Shown here: in pieces, positions 6,680 through 19,648 of the stretch
Position numbering within the stretch: position 1 is the first letter of the stretch
How the letters are laid out: every line of letters starts with the position of its first letter
IMG/VR virus record: IMGVR_UViG_3300035661_000009
Span: 1 to 64,000 of that record
Source: a virus
DNA: 64,000 nucleotides
Reading direction: 5' to 3' (one strand)
Translations under genes and position numbers: made by a program
The notes under the pieces: model-generated
Databases searched by the model: none
What the model saw: the letters and a program-made list of their open reading frames with translations, nothing else
What the model was told of the DNA's origin: nothing

Positions 6680-8092
6680 TTAAAACGCACCGATTAGTGA
6701 GTCAATTAGAACGTTCTTGCGTGGCTCCAGAACCGCTAAGCAGAGGAAACGGAAATGCGCTTCAGGCTGTGAAAGGTCAACTACCGCTAGTTTTAGACGG
6801 CTGTATGAAGCTAGTTCCTTTAATACCATTGTATCCTTTTCTACTAGGAATCCAGTGATACCACCGGGTAGACGGTTATTTAGGTCAAGGAATTGTACTG
6901 AAGCTCCCTTGTACGCTACACGACCTACTAACTTCGCAGTTGACGCCGCACCACCTGAGGCTGAGCGGAATACGTTGAAGAAACGTACAGTACCTGAACC
7001 AACGGCACAGGTTACTTGGATTTGCTGACCGGCAGTTAATGAAGCTGAGGTTACAGCCGCTGAAGGTGCTGATTCACCAATTTCATTTTCCGCAGTAATG
7101 TAATAAGTATAAGTCGCGCCAGCTAGGAATGAAGTTGACCCAGCTTGAGGAGTGACTGAAGAAATTGAGGGCGTACCGGGAGCGCCGTTACGAGTTCTCT
7201 TTTGCTTAGTTTGCGCTGATAGGAAGCGTGAAGCTTCTAGGGTGACAACGCCACCTGAAACTGCTTGCTTACCGATATCCGCACCAGTGGTAGGCTCAGA
7301 AGCTGAGTTACCAAGAACAATGCGTTCCTTACCGGCATAGCTGTTCTTTGAGTAAGCTGATAGAACTAGAGGATCTATATAAAGCTTATCTGCCGATCCC
7401 ATGTTCATTAGACCACGAACCCAAGCATCTTCAATCATTGACTGGGTTAGAACACCACCACCAGCTATAATAACTGAAAGGTTTGAACCAAACGCGTCAA
7501 ACATTAGGTCTTGAGTGTTGGTTTGTGAGTCTGAAATACGAACTTGCGCATCTAGACCAACCATGTTAGGCATACGGTCTGGGAACGCTAGCGGGTTACC
7601 ATCGAAAACACCCGCGTTTGAGAAGTCGCCCTTACCACGGAAAATATCAAATTCGACATCGCCAGCGATTTTCTTCGCGCCTGATTGCGCTTCACGATCT
7701 TCCGCCTTAACGCCATCTTGAGTCTCTGCCATATTAGCAGCTAGAGTTACTCGACGAATGTGGCTGTAATAAGCCATCGGAACAACCGCGCGCACGAAGT
7801 CTGAGGTCTCTTCTGACCCTACTTGACCTTCGTGTTGCGCTGAACCGCCAAAGATACCATATGATAGCTGGCGATTGAATTGTACCAATTGACCCTTAGA
7901 CTTTTCCACCTTAACTTCTTTTTGAAGTTTGATGTGCTTGTCTTGGAAGGTGACGTTGTGCATTACAGGTGAAACATCTTCTACCTGTAGGGCGCTGCCT
8001 TGCACGAGTGAACCGGGAGAACCTGCATATGAGCCCAATTCTAGTGCCTTAACTAGATCTTCAATTTTGTTTAAAAGGTTTGTACCTGACAT
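6680..8092 (-). CDS. Major capsid protein, HK97-like fold, with inserted Ig/FN3-like domain
   Basis: This 470-residue shell subunit follows scaffold directly and has a strong AGGAG site. Residues 1-300 and 405-470 form the capsid core: N-arm, VEFDIFRGKGDF and the DKLYIDPLVLSAYSKN segment, then a C-terminal LKLAVVDLSQPEAHFRFLCL strand. Residues about 303-405 (GAPGTPSISSVTPQAG, then TYTYYITAENEIGESAPS) form a fibronectin-III/Ig-like insertion, probably displayed on the capsid surface. The N-terminal segment around residue 22 (AGSPGSLVQGSALQVEDV) resembles a stretch in the protease gene and may be a processing region. The gene order scaffold - capsid - small protein is classical. Confidence 0.88.
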   Translation of the reverse strand: MSGTNLLNKIEDLVKALELGSYAGSPGSLVQGSALQVEDVSPVMHNVTFQDKHIKLQKEVKVEKSKGQLVQFNRQLSYGIFGGSAQHEGQVGSEETSDFVRAVVPMAYYSHIRRVTLAANMAETQDGVKAEDREAQSGAKKIAGDVEFDIFRGKGDFSNAGVFDGNPLAFPDRMPNMVGLDAQVRISDSQTNTQDLMFDAFGSNLSVIIAGGGVLTQSMIEDAWVRGLMNMGSADKLYIDPLVLSAYSKNSYAGKERIVLGNSASEPTTGADIGKQAVSGGVVTLEASRFLSAQTKQKRTRNGAPGTPSISSVTPQAGSTSFLAGATYTYYITAENEIGESAPSAAVTSASLTAGQQIQVTCAVGSGTVRFFNVFRSASGGAASTAKLVGRVAYKGASVQFLDLNNRLPGGITGFLVEKDTMVLKELASYSRLKLAVVDLSQPEAHFRFLCLAVLEPRKNVLIDSLIGAF

Positions 8093-9743: not shown

Positions 9744-10157
9744 ATGGAAATGTTCAAATGTTCAAGATGTGAAGTAACTAAGTCGAGAGACAAGTTCCAT
9801 GAAGTAACTGATAAAAATAGAAATAGACCAGTTACTTCATGGTGTGCGGATTGTCGCAAGACAGCAGATAGAAGCCGAGAGCTTTTTAATTTTGCTTTTA
9901 AAAAATATGGCCAAATCTGTATTTATTGTAAATACCCCAAAAAGAACACCTATCGAGGAGTTTGTAAGAAATGTATGAAAAAGCAGGGCCTAAAAGAATG
10001 TAAACGATGCAAGACAATCCTTTTATTGGCTTTTGATTTTTGGGAAAAGAAAGGGGCTTGTAAACACTGCTTAAGAGAGCAATGGCGAGAAGAAGCTATT
10101 TTAAAGGGTGTTGGAGCTTTAAGCCGCGGGGAACAATTGTCTCAAGATAGGTCTTAG
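9744..10157 (+). CDS. Cys-rich zinc-ribbon protein, antisense insertion, homing-endonuclease-like
   Basis: This 137-residue protein is encoded rightward, against the surrounding head genes, and its 3' end overlaps the GGDEF-like gene by 62 nt. It carries repeated CxxC pairs: C6/C9 with C34/C37, two further pairs in the middle (CIYC, CKKC), then CKRC with CKHC. The outer repeats have the zinc-ribbon layout often found at the N-terminus of phage HNH proteins (compare the endonuclease VII-like gene at 30596). No HNH catalytic His-Asn/Asp-His is visible, so it may be a nuclease remnant, a DNA-binding accessory, or an unusual family member. Its orientation and isolation suggest a mobile cassette. 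The exact start is uncertain since no good ribosome site is seen. Confidence 0.5.
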   Translation: MEMFKCSRCEVTKSRDKFHEVTDKNRNRPVTSWCADCRKTADRSRELFNFAFKKYGQICIYCKYPKKNTYRGVCKKCMKKQGLKECKRCKTILLLAFDFWEKKGACKHCLREQWREEAILKGVGALSRGEQLSQDRS

Positions 10158-10794
10158 ATTTTTCTAATGGTCGCCAATCATCTGGCGGAGCTTCGTGCAA
10201 CTTAGATACATGAATAAACGGCTCTTTGCCTAAATCAAAATGCTTAACCCTTTGGCTGTTTATCATTCCACCAAGAATATCCTTTGCTTCTTGCAATGCT
10301 TGTTCTGCTTGTCCCGGAGAATAGCCAATGCCTACAGAAACGGTGAATTTATGGTTGGTTCCAGACAATACTTCTGTTTCATCTAGCTTTTGTTCTAATT
10401 CTTTAGTAAATCCAAGGGCTTCTTGTGGAGATTTAAATATAATTCTGCTTTTATCCCCACTAACTCTAAAGGCATGAACCTTATATTTCTTAGATAATTC
10501 TAGTATTGAATTAAACATTAGCGAAACGCCTTCATCTCCCATTAATTGGCCATGGGTGTCGCTTAATGCTCCGACCGAATTACCATCAATAGTTACGTGA
10601 ACGCCTGAATTTTTATTAAAAGCCACGAATTTCTTGTAAGAAAATAGATTCCCAAAGTCTGGAAACTGACTATCCTTTTCGATATGATCAGGAAACTCAG
10701 GCTCGGCTGGTTTTTCATAGATAGGCAAGGAAGGATCCATCTTTTGAAGATTTTCCATTCCCTTAAGTAGTTCGAAGTAGTCTTCATTAAACAT
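10096..10794 (-). CDS. GGDEF-like (nucleotide cyclase fold) protein with degenerate active site
   Basis: In this 232-residue protein, residues about 55-175 follow the GGDEF domain layout. VHVTIDGNSVGALSDTHGQ (64-83) matches the first metal-binding strand and the ND.yGH segment. LMGDEGVSLMFNSILEL matches the GD..L helix. AFRVSGDKSRIIF (108-120) replaces RyGGDEFaill, and FTVSVGIGYS (150-159) replaces the TVSiGia strand. ALQEAKD ends the fold. The signature GGDEF is SGDKS: one Asp is kept and the Glu is lost. The first Asp (D70) is present. It could be a catalytically dead nucleotide-binding domain or a diverged cyclase. It overlaps the previous gene by a single base (TAATG) and belongs to the portal/protease chain of the head operon. 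The N-terminal 50 residues are Pro/acidic-rich. Confidence 0.62.
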   Translation of the reverse strand: MFNEDYFELLKGMENLQKMDPSLPIYEKPAEPEFPDHIEKDSQFPDFGNLFSYKKFVAFNKNSGVHVTIDGNSVGALSDTHGQLMGDEGVSLMFNSILELSKKYKVHAFRVSGDKSRIIFKSPQEALGFTKELEQKLDETEVLSGTNHKFTVSVGIGYSPGQAEQALQEAKDILGGMINSQRVKHFDLGKEPFIHVSKLHEAPPDDWRPLEKSKTYLETIVPRGLKLQHPLK

Positions 10795-11240
10795 TAGAAC
10801 TTCTCCATTTTATACTTGCCTAGTTGTACTTGTGCAAATAGCTCTTTTAATTCGTCTTTAGAAATTTGCTTCCCACCAAATATGGTGTTTATTCCGTATA
10901 TTTCAAGTATTTTAGGCTGATCTATCCCATTCCACACAAAATACTTGGCGTCTGGGTCTACATCGCCAAGACTCATTTCAGGAATAACGTCGTCGTGAGC
11001 CCCTTCATTGGCTTGTTTATCAGAAATGACTTTAAAATACGGTGTGTGGCAAAGATGGAATATCTTTTTTGATATTTCTGGAGTTATTGGACCTTCTATT
11101 ACATCTTCCATCAAATTATCGTGATCTTCTAATATGTAGAATTTACCGTTTTTAATAAAAAACTTAGACACTTGTCTTTCTACGGGTTTGCCGTATCCTG
11201 ATTTAATGCTATAGACTCTATAAATTCCGTCTTTTAACAT
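10794..11240 (-). CDS. Hypothetical protein between protease-kinase and GGDEF-like genes
   Basis: This 148-residue protein follows 8 nt after the protease-kinase gene and overlaps the GGDEF-like start by one base. It has beta strands at the N-terminus (GIYRVYSIKSGYG, SKFFIKNGKFYILED) and a helical C-terminus (ISKDELKELFAQVQLGKYKM). No membrane segment, metal motif or known family was recognised. Its tight coupling to both neighbours suggests it works with them. Confidence 0.4.
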   Translation of the reverse strand: MLKDGIYRVYSIKSGYGKPVERQVSKFFIKNGKFYILEDHDNLMEDVIEGPITPEISKKIFHLCHTPYFKVISDKQANEGAHDDVIPEMSLGDVDPDAKYFVWNGIDQPKILEIYGINTIFGGKQISKDELKELFAQVQLGKYKMEKF

Positions 11241-11248
11241 TTAGACTC

Positions 11249-13246
11249 CTAGACCCCGTAGTTCTTATGTGCCGACAAGATATCGCCCATACTGTTCTGA
11301 CCCAATACTGAGGTAGATTGCATTGCTAGTAGTCTTTTAACTGCCTTTTCTACTAATGTCGGGTGGATCTTGCTTTCTTCTAGTTGGCGCTTTAATTCAA
11401 ATGGATCTAAACCTACTAGCCATTTCTTAGCTTCAGGGTGAATGTTTTTTTCATAAATATTTTTACCCTTAATTCTTGCATAATCTTCCAAATATGATGG
11501 AATCTCGTCCTTGTTGTAGTCAAAGGTAAGTGCGTTATCAATAAGCATTACTTTGTTATTACGTTTATCAATCATGTAGTTAGTTTTGTTTCTATCTCTG
11601 TTGCCTAGAACCGTGTCCATAATGGCCATTTTATCTAATTGACCGGTAACCCCTTCTTTATGCAATATTGGACGAGTAGCCGCTGAAGGAGAATCTGGGT
11701 GAAAATGAACCGCTTCAGGCAAGACTTCCATTGCTGAATGTTCTTTGCCACCTTCTGGGTGAGAAAAGAGGGTTGTCGTAGGAACGTTGTCTATACCGAA
11801 AAATCCCTTTGATAAGTTATGGAATATAACCTCTCTTGCTGCCGTCGAAGGTTTTATTTCTTTATCTGGCTCATCCTCATAATCTACGCTTGGCTTTACG
11901 TGGGCAGTTTTGCCGCTGGCTGACTTGTACCAACCATAAGCTGCGTCTTTGTCTTTAATATGCCAAGTGGAAGTTCTTGGATGATCTACAGATTCTTGTT
12001 TAATGTCAATTCCGTGAATTAAATCTTTTTGTTCATGCGTCTTTGTGTGATCAAGACTTGAATGTTTACCACCATCTACATATAAAGCTTCATGAACCTC
12101 TTCTGGCATCTTTATAATAGCGAAGTGACTGCCTTCTTGTTTTCTATTGATCTTATTTATATTGACTTCACTCTGATCGCCTGCTTTGGGTGGTTTTACG
12201 TGAACGTGAGTGTCGTCAACATGAAGCAATTTAAGCTTACTTCCCTTAAATGGCCCGCCAATTAGCTCGATTTCTCCGGGCTTAACCATTTTATCTTTAT
12301 ATTTGATAGCACCTTTTTCTGCTTTTGGCAAATCCGATAATCCATCTTCCTCACTCTTGCGAAATTGGATTTCATTAACCATATCTGAATATTTATCCAA
12401 ATACTTGTCGGCAACATCTGGTAATGAATGTTTAAGAAACTTCTTAAGATAAGGCTTGAACGGCATTTTACCATCATAATCTCTAGCCGCAGCTAGTAAT
12501 TGATTTTTAAAGAACTTCTTTTTTCCAATTACATCTTCTACGGCTAAAGCAGAGCCGCCAGTTAATGAACCGGGAGCGGCATCGCCGCCGCCGAGAGTTA
12601 ACGTCTTTTCTAGAGCTACATCTACCATTTCATATTCCATCTCACTAATGGCAATATATTTTTCGCTCTTTTGAACATCGACCCCAACTTGCTTAACCTT
12701 AGGTTCTGAAACTAGGTTACTAAAACTGCTACGATTACAAGGCTTGATAGTTGCAGCTACTCGACGAGCAATAGTCTTTAATAGATAGTTGCCGTTTCTA
12801 TCAATGGTGCTTCCTTCAATACTGTATCTAATAACAATTGGCAAGCCACGACGATGATAATGTTTAATCATAGCGGCGGCGTCTTTTGCGTTACTATGCC
12901 CTTCTTTGTCAAATAATTCAGAAGCTCCGTAGATAAATGGGAGTTTAATTTCATTCCAAAGCTTAAGCTCTCTCTCAGATTCACAATCTTCTTCGCCAAA
13001 TATTTTCTTAGCGAAGATAATTCTTCCTATGATTACAGAGAAGGTGGCTGATTCTTTTTTGTCTGGATTATTGTGCTCTGTATTCAAAATGCCATCTTCA
13101 TTTAATGATGATATATCAGCGCCCTTAACGCTGATAATTTCTCCTGAAGTATCAATGGCTTCTGTAGCAAAAGCACCATCTATAACGGTGCCATGATCTG
13201 GATAGCGAAGCGCTTCCTCTATTTTAGGATGGAATTTGACTAACAT
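11249..13246 (-). CDS. Prohead protease fused to a PI3/4-kinase-like (protein kinase-fold) domain
   Basis: This 665-residue protein has two recognisable halves. Residues 1-180 form a prohead protease of the T4 gp21/S78 type: GAFATEAIDTSGEIISVKGAD, then NTEHN with candidate catalytic His58, and VIRYSIEG with candidate Ser142 in the position of GFSIEG. Residues about 430-640 look like a PI3/4-kinase or HipA-like kinase: KTAHVKPS (ATP-lysine candidate K451), AREVIFHNLSKGFFGIDNVP, then MDTVLGNRDRNKTNYMID with the catalytic-loop layout D..xGNxDRxxxNY and the metal motif LIDNALTF (568-575). Between them lies LGGGDAAPGSLTGGSALAVE, similar to a stretch of major capsid. It is one base from portal (TAATG). 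The protease matures the prohead; the kinase role is unknown. Confidence 0.72.
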   Translation of the reverse strand: MLVKFHPKIEEALRYPDHGTVIDGAFATEAIDTSGEIISVKGADISSLNEDGILNTEHNNPDKKESATFSVIIGRIIFAKKIFGEEDCESERELKLWNEIKLPFIYGASELFDKEGHSNAKDAAAMIKHYHRRGLPIVIRYSIEGSTIDRNGNYLLKTIARRVAATIKPCNRSSFSNLVSEPKVKQVGVDVQKSEKYIAISEMEYEMVDVALEKTLTLGGGDAAPGSLTGGSALAVEDVIGKKKFFKNQLLAAARDYDGKMPFKPYLKKFLKHSLPDVADKYLDKYSDMVNEIQFRKSEEDGLSDLPKAEKGAIKYKDKMVKPGEIELIGGPFKGSKLKLLHVDDTHVHVKPPKAGDQSEVNINKINRKQEGSHFAIIKMPEEVHEALYVDGGKHSSLDHTKTHEQKDLIHGIDIKQESVDHPRTSTWHIKDKDAAYGWYKSASGKTAHVKPSVDYEDEPDKEIKPSTAAREVIFHNLSKGFFGIDNVPTTTLFSHPEGGKEHSAMEVLPEAVHFHPDSPSAATRPILHKEGVTGQLDKMAIMDTVLGNRDRNKTNYMIDKRNNKVMLIDNALTFDYNKDEIPSYLEDYARIKGKNIYEKNIHPEAKKWLVGLDPFELKRQLEESKIHPTLVEKAVKRLLAMQSTSVLGQNSMGDILSAHKNYGV

Positions 13247-15150
13247 TATCGACCCTTAATTAGTTTTAATGCCTTTTCAATAGAAGCTCTTTCACCTTTG
13301 CTTAACTCTGATCGGGTAAGTAGGCTTTCTAATTGATTAACTCCGGTCATTAATTCATTACCTTGAGAATTAGCTTGTTGTGTTTTTTGTTGCTCTTGTT
13401 GCTGAAGCTGTTGTTGTTGTTGCATTTGTTGCTCAGCCATCTTCTTTTGTTCTTCTTGTTGTTGTCGAGCTTCAATTAACTGCTTTTGAGTAAACCAGAA
13501 TTGATCTCGACGATAGCCATTCATTGGGTCTTTTTTAGCTTCTTTGTCGTCAAAGAAATATTCTTTAATTTCTCCAACAGTAAAATAATTGTCAAGAATC
13601 TTCTGGAACATTTCGTTAAATGGAAATTCGCCGCCCATTTTACGACCGACTTTGGGCTTTTCTACCTTTTCAAGTATTTCGTCCATCGTGCCCCAGATAG
13701 GAGCCCACTCTTGAATAGCGGTTCTTTCTTTTTCAGGAGAATCGGTTTCTAATCCGTGGAATCTAACAGTACAATATTCGGCTAATTCTTTATCTATTAA
13801 TGGAAGAATCTTAGTTGAAAGGAAGTCTTGTAAGTGTGAAAGCAATGGACGGATGCCTACGTCTCTATGCGCTTCAAGCTTGTATTCATTATTTGATTCT
13901 GATAAAGTCTGGGTGTTAGTACCCTTTGACAAATGTGAATAAGCAGGAACTTCGTCTGGCGACATTTGGAACGCAGCTAAGACTACACGACAATTACTAT
14001 CATATAGGTATTGGAATTCCATATCTCTTGAAGCTCCATCCATGGGAGCCCAAGTTACCTTATCTTCTTTACCTACTTTAATTACTGGAGTTTTCCACGA
14101 ATTGCTTACGCTGTTAATAGCCGCATTGAATTGCTGCTTAAGATCTGCTAAGGTGCTAGGGTCTACCTCATCTGAGCTAATAACCATCATGCCCTTCGCT
14201 GCACGTCCGTTTTGGAAATAAAGCTTATTGTGGTTAGTTATATTAATATGGGTAGTTATTGCAGCGAATGCAACATCGATTGGCGTAATTGGATACCCAT
14301 TATTTTCAATATCGGTCGATGGATAGCAGTTCCTTACTATTAACTCATCGGCCTCAAATCCTTGGGCTGGTGTTCCGTTAATTACTTGAAAGAATTTATA
14401 ATCATCAGCTTTGAACTTCTTAGGGTCAAGCTTGAGATTTTTCTGTTCAGAAATTACCCTAATCGCTTCTTTTCTAATGTTCGCATCTATACTGTCGGTA
14501 GGAACTGCGCGATAAACAGTGCCAGCGTCAACTGGCCTAAAAGCATAAAAACCGTTTTTATTGCCCTGGGTGTCTCGTTTGTGAATAACTTCGGTGGCGA
14601 ACCTTCCAAATAATAAGGCGTTTCGAGCGGTTAGATACAAGAAGGTTGATAAGCTCATCATGTCGTCTTCGTCTGTATCTTCTGTATGGCCACAGGTCAA
14701 AAGGATTTCTTGAGCCTTGTCCATTCTGATTCGAAGCTCTTTTGCTTTTTCTTTATCTAAATGCTTGAATTTATGTGGCTTAGGATCTACTCTAAATCCC
14801 CACTCAAAACGATCTTCCAATATTTGACCGAATACAGCACTTTGGTTTGCACGAATATGTAAAATGTTGGCGATCAAATCATCCGTCACTGAAACGCGCT
14901 TTAACAAAATATCGGGTAATTGACCTACTTTGTCATAGAAAATACCCATAAAGCGATTTACGCTCTTTGGATCCTCTTCTAAAGCTAGTCGTTGGATTTT
15001 GTTAGATTTAGTGATACTTGTTAATATGCTCTTAATTAGCGGAGTTACGTTAGGTAACTCGATGTTTTCGCCATCTTCATATTTAGCAAGCACATCTGGT
15101 GTGATTTGATTATCGAGAGCTTCGAATTCAAATCGGGGCTTTTTGGACAT
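13246..15150 (-). CDS. Portal protein
   Basis: The portal dodecamer forms the DNA channel at the capsid vertex and docks terminase. This 634-residue protein starts at ATG with GGAG upstream. Hallmarks are NNGYPITPIDVAFAAITTHI, RAAKGMMVISSDEV and FQMSPDEVPAYSHLSKGTN, the long-helix and wing segments of phage portals. The SESNNEYKLEAHRDVGIRPL region and a Gln-rich tail (QQQEEQKKMAEQQMQQQQQ, about residues 567-585) follow. The length is normal for large phages. It lies directly downstream of TerL and a virion gene and is TAATG-coupled to the protease-kinase. Confidence 0.86.
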   Translation of the reverse strand: MSKKPRFEFEALDNQITPDVLAKYEDGENIELPNVTPLIKSILTSITKSNKIQRLALEEDPKSVNRFMGIFYDKVGQLPDILLKRVSVTDDLIANILHIRANQSAVFGQILEDRFEWGFRVDPKPHKFKHLDKEKAKELRIRMDKAQEILLTCGHTEDTDEDDMMSLSTFLYLTARNALLFGRFATEVIHKRDTQGNKNGFYAFRPVDAGTVYRAVPTDSIDANIRKEAIRVISEQKNLKLDPKKFKADDYKFFQVINGTPAQGFEADELIVRNCYPSTDIENNGYPITPIDVAFAAITTHINITNHNKLYFQNGRAAKGMMVISSDEVDPSTLADLKQQFNAAINSVSNSWKTPVIKVGKEDKVTWAPMDGASRDMEFQYLYDSNCRVVLAAFQMSPDEVPAYSHLSKGTNTQTLSESNNEYKLEAHRDVGIRPLLSHLQDFLSTKILPLIDKELAEYCTVRFHGLETDSPEKERTAIQEWAPIWGTMDEILEKVEKPKVGRKMGGEFPFNEMFQKILDNYFTVGEIKEYFFDDKEAKKDPMNGYRRDQFWFTQKQLIEARQQQEEQKKMAEQQMQQQQQLQQQEQQKTQQANSQGNELMTGVNQLESLLTRSELSKGERASIEKALKLIKGR

Positions 15151-16179: not shown

Positions 16180-19026
16180 TTATATCGAGAATAACAGACC
16201 GCCCGGCTTGCCAGTTACTTTAACCTCTCCATCGGAGGCGTCAATTCCCGCCTTTTTCTGAATCCAGCCTTCATTTGGGTCTCTTTGGTATATTTTATTA
16301 TTATCATTAAATACCATAACCGCTTTTGACTTGTTTAATGGCACGTTTTGGCATAAATATCTAAATGCATCTAATTCGTCGTCATCTTGACTATCCGGCT
16401 CATCCGTTAGATTGCCCTGTGGATCGATTTTCCAGTGGTATCCGACTATCTTAGTAGCCAAGAATTCACAGCCAGGATCTTCCTTAAGTAAGAATACTGA
16501 TGGAGGAAGGCCGTTTCCGGGCATTATACGCTTTCTTGCATTTTCAATACCTAATTGAACTTCTTTTTTAAAGTTAATCATTCTAAAACCCGCCATTCTA
16601 AACGATTTAACGTCTGAAGGATAGGCGTTATCTGGATATATGGCGGGGTTTAATGGAGTAAGCTTTTCTTTACATAGTTCGATTCTTTGCTGTAATTCCA
16701 AGCCCTTAGCTGAAATTACGTCTATTATATAAAGAGTGTGACCTAATAGCGCCGCTGTAACTACAGCGAAATTATGAGTAAAGCCCCAGTCTAGTCCACA
16801 ATAAAATTCAGCTCCCATTCTTTTAAATATCTCTATTAGCTCTGCCTTATTTAAATGGTCAGGAAATTCTTCACCAGTAGCCCTTCTTGCCATGTCTGCG
16901 GCAGACAATAAATGCTTTTCTCTTTGAAAATTAGGATAAATCTTACCTTCTGAGGACGGTAAATAACACATTAATTGAGCACGAGCTAGATCTACCGATA
17001 TAGTAGAAAATAAGGGCTGTACGTGGTTGATTTTCTTTAATAACTTACTGTCTGATGTTTGCTTAGTAGCTAAACGCCCCTTACATTGAGCAAAGAGTTT
17101 ACAATTTTGTAAACAGCCTTTATAGCCCATTTTAACGTCCCATTGAGCTTTTTCTTTTTCAGATAGCAAGTCGTGTTCTGCTTTGCTAATCGCCCGTAAA
17201 TTATTTTCAGAAAAATAAATGGGGATTTGTGGTTCTTCTGGCAAATGCCTCTTAGGTGGGCATCTTTCGGTTACGTCAATAATATTCCAATGGCGTATAT
17301 TTAAGCCGGTCCTATGGCTAGCGTCGATTTCTTGCTGAACTAACCCGAATGAATATTTTCTAGTAGAGGTAAGAAAGGTAATGGGTAGCTGTCCGTCATC
17401 CCCCATTGATGGAATCATCTTGCTTTCGTCATAAGCGGCGGGTTCTGATAGATCTAGTTCGTCGCAATTTTTAACTAAAACCCCATTGGCTATGAAGTTA
17501 TGGTTGTCTTTAACGGTAAAATCAATTACCCAGTCTTCGCCCATAGGTTCAATAGACTTGATAATGTCTACTTTAATTGATTTTGACTGGGCGGCAACAC
17601 ACATTTGATTACCGCAAGTAACTGCGGATTTACCCAGCATTGCTGGATAGTATTGTTTTTTACAAAAACGGCATTCTTTTTGTGGTGATATGTCAAATTT
17701 ATACATCATGGTCGGGTGTATGTATTTTTTGCAAATCTTAAATAATTCTTTTGAGTTATTAGAGTAAAACCCATATAATAATTTTTGAGTATATCCGCTT
17801 TTAGCTGTCTTATTTTGAGTGAATTTAAGTTTTTGGCTTAATTTATTCAATTTCCAATCTAAATAATCTTTTTGCGCATAACTATGTTGTTCTTTAAAGC
17901 AAGAATTTGATGTTTGTCCCCTATAGACTCCAGCATCTCCTAATAATGAACCTATTAATGTCTGTTCAAAACAATCGGATATCGGCTCTTTATATTTAAT
18001 TTTTATATCGCTAACTATAGGCAATAATTGTTTCTTAGCCATTGATTGTGTTTTATATATTCTTAAAACTCCGTCTCCGATGTTTAAATCTTTAACTTCT
18101 TTATAACCATTAAGCGTCATTATTGGATGATTTTCGGTACAGACTAAATTTTTACCACTTTCTAATGAAATTTTAAATACTTTTTTAAACGATCTTCTTG
18201 TAGCTATTATGGGTTTAAATTCAAATAAGCCATTTTTATAATTAAATGATAAAACTTCAATATTTTCTTGAACATTTTTTGTAAATCCTTCTAATTTATT
18301 TTTAATATTTGGAGAAAATCCCATTAATCTATTAAAAATTACTCCAGCTTTAGCTGGTATTCTATCTCGTTTATTTTTAATGCTATTATTTTTGATTAAA
18401 ATTTCACTTTGATCTGAAACACAAACGAAAAAAGGGGCGTGAAGCCCGTTAGCTCCACCAACCGTAGCGATAACGATCTTAATCCAACTAACCTTTTCTT
18501 CATAATTCTTCTTTTCATGATCAGTTAGTTTATTGAATTCGGCTGGAGAAATAGATCTAGATCCATCCATAGATAAATATCTAGTAATTTCTATTTGTCT
18601 TTTGTTCTTAGAGGTCATAAATTCTCTAAGAATTGGACGTTTAAAATAACCCTCTATATATCTCTGGCAATTGTTAGCTTGAGCTTCTAATGCCGCCATA
18701 TGGCCAACATTACGACCGAGGTGGAACATACATAAAGTTTCAAGAATGGCTGCTGATAGCGTCTTAAAACTATCTCTAGCTGCGAACCCTAATACGCGAG
18801 TAAATGTTTCATCTTGGCCATTTCTCGCTTTTGAGTATATTTCCCAAATTAAATCCATTGGGCTTGAATTGCTTGAAGGATTCCTGACCTCATCATCACA
18901 TACAATTACATTAGGCACGTCAATACCTAAATATATCTTAATCCACTTATGTAAGTGTTCCTTGGTGTCACACGGAATGAATAATGCTTTTCTGAGTATC
19001 TCTTCTTGTTCTTCTTTACTTAGCAT
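16180..19026 (-). CDS. terL: Large terminase subunit TerL, interrupted by an intein
   Basis: The packaging motor ATPase and headful nuclease. The preferred start is ATG 19026, which has AAGAG upstream; an in-frame TTG lies 18 nt further up. The 948-residue precursor contains a 319-residue intein (residues 202-520), leaving about 629 residues. A Walker A-like ARDSFKT lies at 83-89. Walker B FFVCDELD is completed only after splicing, because the intein sits between V and C. The C-terminal nuclease has CGLDWGFTHNFAVV and a final acidic cluster QDDDELDAFRYL. The Walker A lacks the usual Gly before Lys-Thr (FKT), seen in some terminases. TerS lies immediately upstream, overlapping by 11 nt. Confidence 0.9.
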   Translation of the reverse strand: MLSKEEQEEILRKALFIPCDTKEHLHKWIKIYLGIDVPNVIVCDDEVRNPSSNSSPMDLIWEIYSKARNGQDETFTRVLGFAARDSFKTLSAAILETLCMFHLGRNVGHMAALEAQANNCQRYIEGYFKRPILREFMTSKNKRQIEITRYLSMDGSRSISPAEFNKLTDHEKKNYEEKVSWIKIVIATVGGANGLHAPFFVCVSDQSEILIKNNSIKNKRDRIPAKAGVIFNRLMGFSPNIKNKLEGFTKNVQENIEVLSFNYKNGLFEFKPIIATRRSFKKVFKISLESGKNLVCTENHPIMTLNGYKEVKDLNIGDGVLRIYKTQSMAKKQLLPIVSDIKIKYKEPISDCFEQTLIGSLLGDAGVYRGQTSNSCFKEQHSYAQKDYLDWKLNKLSQKLKFTQNKTAKSGYTQKLLYGFYSNNSKELFKICKKYIHPTMMYKFDISPQKECRFCKKQYYPAMLGKSAVTCGNQMCVAAQSKSIKVDIIKSIEPMGEDWVIDFTVKDNHNFIANGVLVKNCDELDLSEPAAYDESKMIPSMGDDGQLPITFLTSTRKYSFGLVQQEIDASHRTGLNIRHWNIIDVTERCPPKRHLPEEPQIPIYFSENNLRAISKAEHDLLSEKEKAQWDVKMGYKGCLQNCKLFAQCKGRLATKQTSDSKLLKKINHVQPLFSTISVDLARAQLMCYLPSSEGKIYPNFQREKHLLSAADMARRATGEEFPDHLNKAELIEIFKRMGAEFYCGLDWGFTHNFAVVTAALLGHTLYIIDVISAKGLELQQRIELCKEKLTPLNPAIYPDNAYPSDVKSFRMAGFRMINFKKEVQLGIENARKRIMPGNGLPPSVFLLKEDPGCEFLATKIVGYHWKIDPQGNLTDEPDSQDDDELDAFRYLCQNVPLNKSKAVMVFNDNNKIYQRDPNEGWIQKKAGIDASDGEVKVTGKPGGLLFSI
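17467..18423 (-). other. Intein in TerL (319 aa, LAGLIDADG-like, zinc-finger-like)
   Basis: Starts with Cys1 after HAPFFV and ends with Asn before Cys+1 of CDELD, so the exteins rejoin the Walker B strand. Block B is TENHPIM with T96 and H99. Blocks F/G are NHNFIANGVLVKN. The penultimate residue is Lys instead of the usual His. LIGSLLGDAG (156-165) resembles a LAGLIDADG half-motif, and a later CRFC...CGNQMC cluster resembles a zinc finger. The long stretch between blocks A and B is unusual. Confidence 0.85.
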
Positions 19027-19648
19027 TTTGTTCTCTTGTAGCAATTAAGTCAAGCAATTCGCTGGCTGCCGCGCTACTTACTCTCTTAGCTTCTGGACCT
19101 TTCATTTCACTAGTAACTGCATGTAAATGCTTAACTGTTCCACCAACCATTACTTCTTTCTTATCGCCAGTTCCTTCAGTAAGTAATTTTAACATAGTTA
19201 AGATTTCTTTATAATTCTTCAAAGAACTTGGATCAAATCCTTGTAATAGCTCTTGATTACCTTCTTGGAGAAATTGTGCTACCTTATCCCCCCAAATCTT
19301 ATGAGCAGCCGCAAGTAGGTCAGATAAATGACTCAATGCATCTTGTTTAACCTTATAGACCTTACGCTCGACTTGACTATGCAAAGCCATTAACTGACGA
19401 TCGCGTCTTATATCCCAATTTAAACGGTCTTTAGCGTCAATTATAGCACCGTATTCAAAGGCTCCGCCATTTGCTTTAAAGATTTGCTCACAAGTATAGC
19501 CGTTTAAATAGAGTTCATACATCTTTACCGCTGTTGGAAGTGGGACGGGGAGTTCCTTTTTTCGCTTCCACTCCCTTAGCGCGAACTCTTCTTCGTCCGG
19601 CACTAGTTTTTCCGTCTGTGGTATTGTCAGTTCCTTGGGCGATTCCAT
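19016..19648 (-). CDS. Small terminase subunit-like protein
   Basis: This 210-residue protein lies just upstream of TerL and overlaps it by 11 nt. The N-terminal third includes a helix-turn-helix-like stretch (VKMYELYLNGYTCEQIF, residues 41-57), followed by a basic region and long helices (DALSHLSDLLAAAHKIWGDK, NYKEILTMLKLLTEG) that resemble an oligomerising TerS core. It likely recognises phage DNA and recruits TerL. The first 45 codons lie in another frame of the preceding 149-residue gene, so the true start could be the internal ATG at residue 43. The assignment rests on position and HTH pattern. Confidence 0.6.
   Translation of the reverse strand: MESPKELTIPQTEKLVPDEEEFALREWKRKKELPVPLPTAVKMYELYLNGYTCEQIFKANGGAFEYGAIIDAKDRLNWDIRRDRQLMALHSQVERKVYKVKQDALSHLSDLLAAAHKIWGDKVAQFLQEGNQELLQGFDPSSLKNYKEILTMLKLLTEGTGDKKEVMVGGTVKHLHAVTSEMKGPEAKRVSSAAASELLDLIATREQNAK

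Follow-up and report, generated by a model that had tools for sequence, protein, structure and literature searches.

The DNA analyzed here (the window) spans positions 1 to 64,000 of IMGVR_UViG_3300035661_000009, a phage record of 160 kb in all, and carries a degenerate GGDEF-fold protein among head genes encoded on the minus strand. In the direction of transcription, a portal protein (13246..15150), recognized by profile matches and homologous to the portal of Myxococcus phage Mx1 (50% identity), is followed by a 665-residue head-maturation protease with a PI3/4-kinase-like C-terminal domain (11249..13246), a 148-residue partner protein (10794..11240), and the GGDEF-fold protein (10096..10794; 232 residues, ATG start), with the major capsid protein further downstream (6680..8092; phrog_752, E 1.2e-43; 55% identical to the Mx1 major capsid protein). 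The GGDEF gene thus sits directly downstream of the protease and its partner and precedes the capsid gene. Its start codon and the stop codon of the partner gene share one base (TAATG), just as the first-pass annotation had stated; the head-operon location and the coupling to the protease/kinase chain that it also described agree with the ORF order, with the synteny in Mx1, and with the fusion of this domain to the protease in relatives. A fold search with the partner protein gave no recognizable match, and PADLOC returned nothing for the GGDEF gene.

On the plus strand, inside the head operon, a 137-residue, Cys-rich, zinc-finger-like ORF (9744-10157) covers the terminal 62 bases of the interval occupied by the GGDEF gene; it resembles an insertion of a mobile or endonuclease-like gene. 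The gene for the terminase large subunit (16180-19044, minus strand) is split by an intein (Pfam Intein_splicing, 1e-13) that contains a LAGLIDADG endonuclease (LAGLIDADG_2, 1.1e-6), and an intein-like segment is also found in the protease of a related phage (L101:16230-20840). Across the 160-kb record we found no second GGDEF gene and no EAL or PilZ gene, and hence no indication that the phage encodes a c-di-GMP circuit of its own.

The landmarks from which a GGDEF-like fold had been proposed, namely, TIDGN (with D70), ALSDTHG, MGD (with D87), RVSGDKS (residues 110 to 116), and TVSVGIG, are present at the corresponding GGDEF positions. Taken singly, the protein is a borderline match to Pfam GGDEF (E = 1.2e-4; 22.3 bits, under the cut-off of 23.8) and finds diguanylate cyclases in the PDB at an E value of 0.025. 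Against a profile of phage relatives from which its own clade was omitted, it scores 127.9 bits (E 4.9e-38), whereas 2000 shuffles of the same residues reach at most 4.1 bits. The relatives individually match Pfam GGDEF at E values down to 1.5e-15, and the family profile, searched against the PDB, reaches DosC at 5e-10; of the 42 distinct sequences that it retrieves at E<=1e-3, almost every one is a cyclase or GGDEF protein.

Structure prediction agrees with the profiles. The AlphaFold model has a pLDDT of 72 overall, and its confident part is the core, residues 46 to 180 (10255..10659, minus strand; about 74 to 94 per 10-residue block and for the most part 80 to 94), where the Foldseek matches to GGDEF cyclases lie. 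In a Foldseek search of the PDB, diguanylate cyclases come first (E 5e-7; for example, 4wxw, with an rmsd of 2.5 and a TM score of 0.70 by target), and nearly all of the 50 matches listed are GGDEF cyclases. A viral structure library yields a phage "GGDEF domain" protein (A0A6J5L0Y4; E 9e-12). The window protein is a member of the GGDEF domain fold superfamily. The mCpol (Panoptes) minimal CRISPR polymerase (PMC12657218) has a related palm fold and gives a weak profile match (E 5.2e-4; 20.8 bits, under the cut-off of 26.4); membership was rejected on account of this subthreshold score and of the much better match of the relatives to GGDEF. Furthermore, mCpol is a host defense gene, whereas the window gene is a head gene.

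A tblastn search of annotated phages gave one match, the Mx1 "nucleotide cyclase" WNM70324.1 (OR576727.2; E 2e-32), and searches of viral and genome contigs with the single protein or with a two-sequence alignment returned the same phage only. Relatives were recovered by way of capsid and portal alignments, followed by an 11-member GGDEF alignment, which yielded 25 distinct GGDEF relatives, the window protein included, in the head clusters of Mx1-like phages; scans of bacterial genomes with a few peptide patterns found none. Mx1 is a cultured Myxococcus xanthus phage with a contractile tail (PMC10720576). Its protein is 32% identical to that of the window over the whole length and resembles it in position and in the one-base overlap with an upstream partner, but it keeps RNGGDEF and the guanine Asn. 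The neighborhood is syntenic (portal, protease, partner, cyclase, two small proteins, and capsid protein), and the portal, protease, partner, one small protein, and capsid protein are each homologous between the window and Mx1.

The link to the head protease extends across the family. The protease itself is assigned through phrog_1028, "head maturation protease" (E down to 8e-10 in the short members), and the Mx1 annotation, and its residues His58, Ser142, and Glu144 are conserved across 68 homologues. In eight phages (L010, L031, L109, L111, L112, L113, L118, and L121), protease and GGDEF domain form one ORF. In nine relatives the GGDEF domain is instead joined at its N-terminal side to the partner, and in six, including the window and Mx1, the GGDEF domain stands alone; two further cases are cut by contig ends. 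GGDEF is present at 19/20 loci with a long protease on the same strand, at 0/6 with a short protease (313 to 336 residues), and at 0/35 with the protease on the opposite strand, counts that come from related and hence nonindependent loci. Mx1 and most relatives carry a domain of ~500 residues without a Pfam match between the protease and the kinase-like domain (for example, L002:7824-11543, residues about 346 to 840), which is absent from the window, L006, and L106. In the window, the C-terminal half of the protease contains a PI3/4-kinase-like catalytic segment, GNRDRNKTN...IDNA (11504-11647, minus strand; Pfam, 2.5e-7), which makes it a candidate for a second packaged enzyme.

This linkage bears on whether the GGDEF module is packaged at all. 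It could be a late-expressed enzyme or relic that acts on host c-di-GMP signaling in the infected cell and is merely cotranslated with head genes, and other phages do have GGDEF proteins outside head clusters (Bordetella FP1 and Pseudomonas PaSz-4). However, on every contig that extends over both protease region and capsid gene, the GGDEF relatives lie between the two, and the family was never seen outside this interval; moreover, the covalent join to the protease would be needless for an independent cytoplasmic enzyme. We consider such an unpackaged role unlikely.

Protease and capsid protein also have a motif in common. It follows the protease domain as KTLTLGGGDAAPGSLTGGSAL (12545..12607, minus strand) and recurs near the N terminus of the capsid protein, at residues 15 to 35, as KALELGSYAGSPGSLVQGSAL (7988..8050, minus strand); we refer to it as the KAMEAGNFNAAPSTLQGGSAL motif. 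The pattern K[AT][LM]xxG....AP[SG]xLxxG[SA]AL, written after the motif had been spotted by eye, matches 33/68 proteases (about half being without it by this measure), 51/81 capsid proteins, and 0/2395 other ORFs. The motif is plausibly a processing or recognition/recruitment site, although it could be a docking peptide rather than a cleavage site. In this group of phages it may mark where maturation cleavage or docking takes place, and it suggests a way in which cargo is processed or recruited.

The metal ligands of PleD are D327 and E370, while N335 and D344 contact guanine, and K442 and R446 contact phosphate (PMC7288161). The window protein retains both metal-ligand positions, as D70 (10585..10587, minus strand; invariant in 25/25 relatives) and D114, together with the guanine Asp (D87, equivalent to D344) and the phosphate Lys (K171, equivalent to K442). 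The first-pass annotation, in which one metal Asp appeared to be kept, therefore undercounted. The signature GG[DE]EF is not intact: RVSGDKS (10447..10467, minus strand) stands in place of RxGGDEF, with R110, G113, and D114 kept and the first Gly, the Glu (E371, now K115), and the Phe lost. N335 is replaced by S78 (10561..10563, minus strand), at a position that is Asn in the 23 relatives outside the window clade. Like PleD, DosC, WspR, and SadC, the window protein has the palm fold and the equivalents of D327, E370, D344, and K442; it differs from them in lacking N335, in having SGDKS for GG[DE]EF, and in its link to the head protease of a phage instead of a sensor domain of bacteria.

Among the 25 relatives, 19 have GGDEF, two GGDEM, one GGDEN, and one SGDEF, followed by SGDKS in the window and SGDKA in L006, so that GG-D-E is kept in 22. 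The second acid and the N335 Asn (replaced by Ser) are missing only in the window and L006. The equivalents of D327, G369, E370 (as Asp), and K442 are invariant family-wide, and the window protein carries the invariant set D70, R110, G113, D114, and K171. Seven members, L006 included, have Asn at the D344 position, a change that may alter base choice in those that are otherwise intact.

These residues could be read as those of a still-active cyclase with a changed substrate or product, in which S78 and K115 alter base choice while D70 and D114 bind metal. The retention of both ligand positions, D87, and K171, the weak match to mCpol, a family that produces other cyclic nucleotides, and the ongoing purifying selection described below would suit such an enzyme. 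However, N335 is reported to be essential for GGDEF activity (PMC7288161), the motif Gly, Glu, and Phe have gone as well, the stem branch is long, and the mCpol matches of the other relatives are no better than their GGDEF matches. The core is also less conserved than the ends between the window and L006 (42% versus 30% changed; permutation p 0.036). We therefore regard this reading as quite unlikely. Loss of activity is a more probable outcome than the diverged cyclic product entertained in the first-pass annotation, since it is only in a long-branch, two-member clade that two motif residues and the essential guanine Asn have disappeared.

In the tree, this clade of the window and L006 (100/100) has a stem 1.29 changes per column long and is sister to L106 (GGDEN) and then to Mx1 and L105 (GGDEF). 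On this topology, catalysis was probably lost once, in their ancestor, before the two split. The gene has nevertheless been maintained, and purifying selection on it continues: between the window and L006, pN is 0.24 and pS is 0.74 (dN/dS about 0.1, the silent sites being almost saturated). The gene evolves faster than its neighbors in the same comparison (pN 0.13 to 0.18). If the gene were a functionless remnant of a once active cyclase, now in decay, this would account for the lost catalytic residues and the accelerated stem, but the ORF is intact in both phages, with equal length and the same one-base overlap despite the near-saturated silent sites, and the C-terminal tail is conserved; together with the excess of silent over replacement changes, this makes decay very improbable. 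The tail, PRGLKLQHPLK (10099..10131, minus strand), is disordered in the model and recognizable in L006, L106, Mx1, and L105, and it is possibly a docking or packaging peptide. The distribution of changes between core and ends, along with the kept tail, fits a fold held for binding or docking and not for catalysis.

Taken together, we consider it reasonably probable that the window protein is an impaired pseudoenzyme of a head-protease-linked GGDEF module that coassembles with the procapsid and is possibly injected. The observed basis is the fold, homology, synteny, fusions, residue losses, and continued selection, from which we infer packaging and activity. The GGDEF domain would form the final unit of a "polyprotein" built on the head-maturation protease, which in the window lineage would have been split into three tightly coupled genes, encoding the protease with its kinase-like domain, the 148-residue partner, and the GGDEF protein. 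The module would enter the procapsid together with the protease, because it is cotranslated with, and in relatives covalently joined to, a protease that acts there. It would then be freed by protease cleavage at the motif common to the capsid protein, and, like T4 Alt, it may exit together with the DNA. For most relatives, we predict a functional nucleotide cyclase whose product is c-di-GMP or a similar dinucleotide. The window protein is most likely a pseudoenzyme, with catalysis abolished or strongly impaired, that keeps the fold, a metal/phosphate site, and the docking ends and would serve the head-protease complex as a structural or nucleotide-sensing component. The retained D70, D87, D114, and K171 leave room for some nucleotide chemistry. 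The earlier reading of a packaged signaling factor is plausible.

Elements of this picture have precedents. Iyer et al. 2017 (PMC5512222) describe polyvalent proteins of phages and conjugative elements, multidomain proteins that combine GGDEF, peptidase, kinase, and further domains and for which packaging and injection are predicted, and propose interference with host nucleotide signaling. Phage-borne GGDEF domains are thus already published, even in proteins predicted to be packaged. Here, in contrast to the polyvalent proteins described there, the peptidase is the head-maturation protease itself, within an architecture conserved across one phage lineage, and the window member is degenerate and split into separate genes; several effector domains in one polypeptide are found only in fused relatives (e.g., L010, L031, and L109), not in the window, where the gene stands alone. 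A text search of the same article found no description of a GGDEF-prohead protease fusion, and we found no report of one in the open-access literature. T4 Alt, a packaged ADP-ribosyltransferase cited there, is a precedent for a head-carried enzyme injected with DNA; its fold is unrelated to GGDEF, and delivery was shown for Alt, whereas for the GGDEF family it would follow by analogy. A different, small phage GGDEF protein (L129:8944-9414 and L130:8944-9414) lies outside head genes and is common in Mesyanzhinovviridae (Bordetella FP1 and Pseudomonas Yuavirus phages). The GGDEF domain, its occurrence in phages, the delivery idea, and the annotation of the Mx1 copy are already known; what we did not find described are the lineage-wide GGDEF domain as part of the head protease, the capsid/protease motif, and a degenerate branch under selection.

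A more far-reaching scenario, which we hold to be speculative and rather doubtful, is that Mx1-like phages carry a protease-borne cyclic-dinucleotide synthase that is cleaved free at the site common to the capsid protein and enters the host alongside the genome, where it would flood or spoof nucleotide signaling or defense, the window module having become a pseudoenzyme that senses nucleotides or regulates the protease and head assembly. Throughout a whole lineage of phages, a signaling-enzyme domain is tied to the maturation of the capsid. Since that lineage includes Mx1, a cultured phage that infects a model organism, whether phages inject cyclic-nucleotide synthases becomes a directly testable question, and the natural series from GGDEF through GGDEN to SGDK[S/A] offers a ready comparison of presumed active and dead forms.
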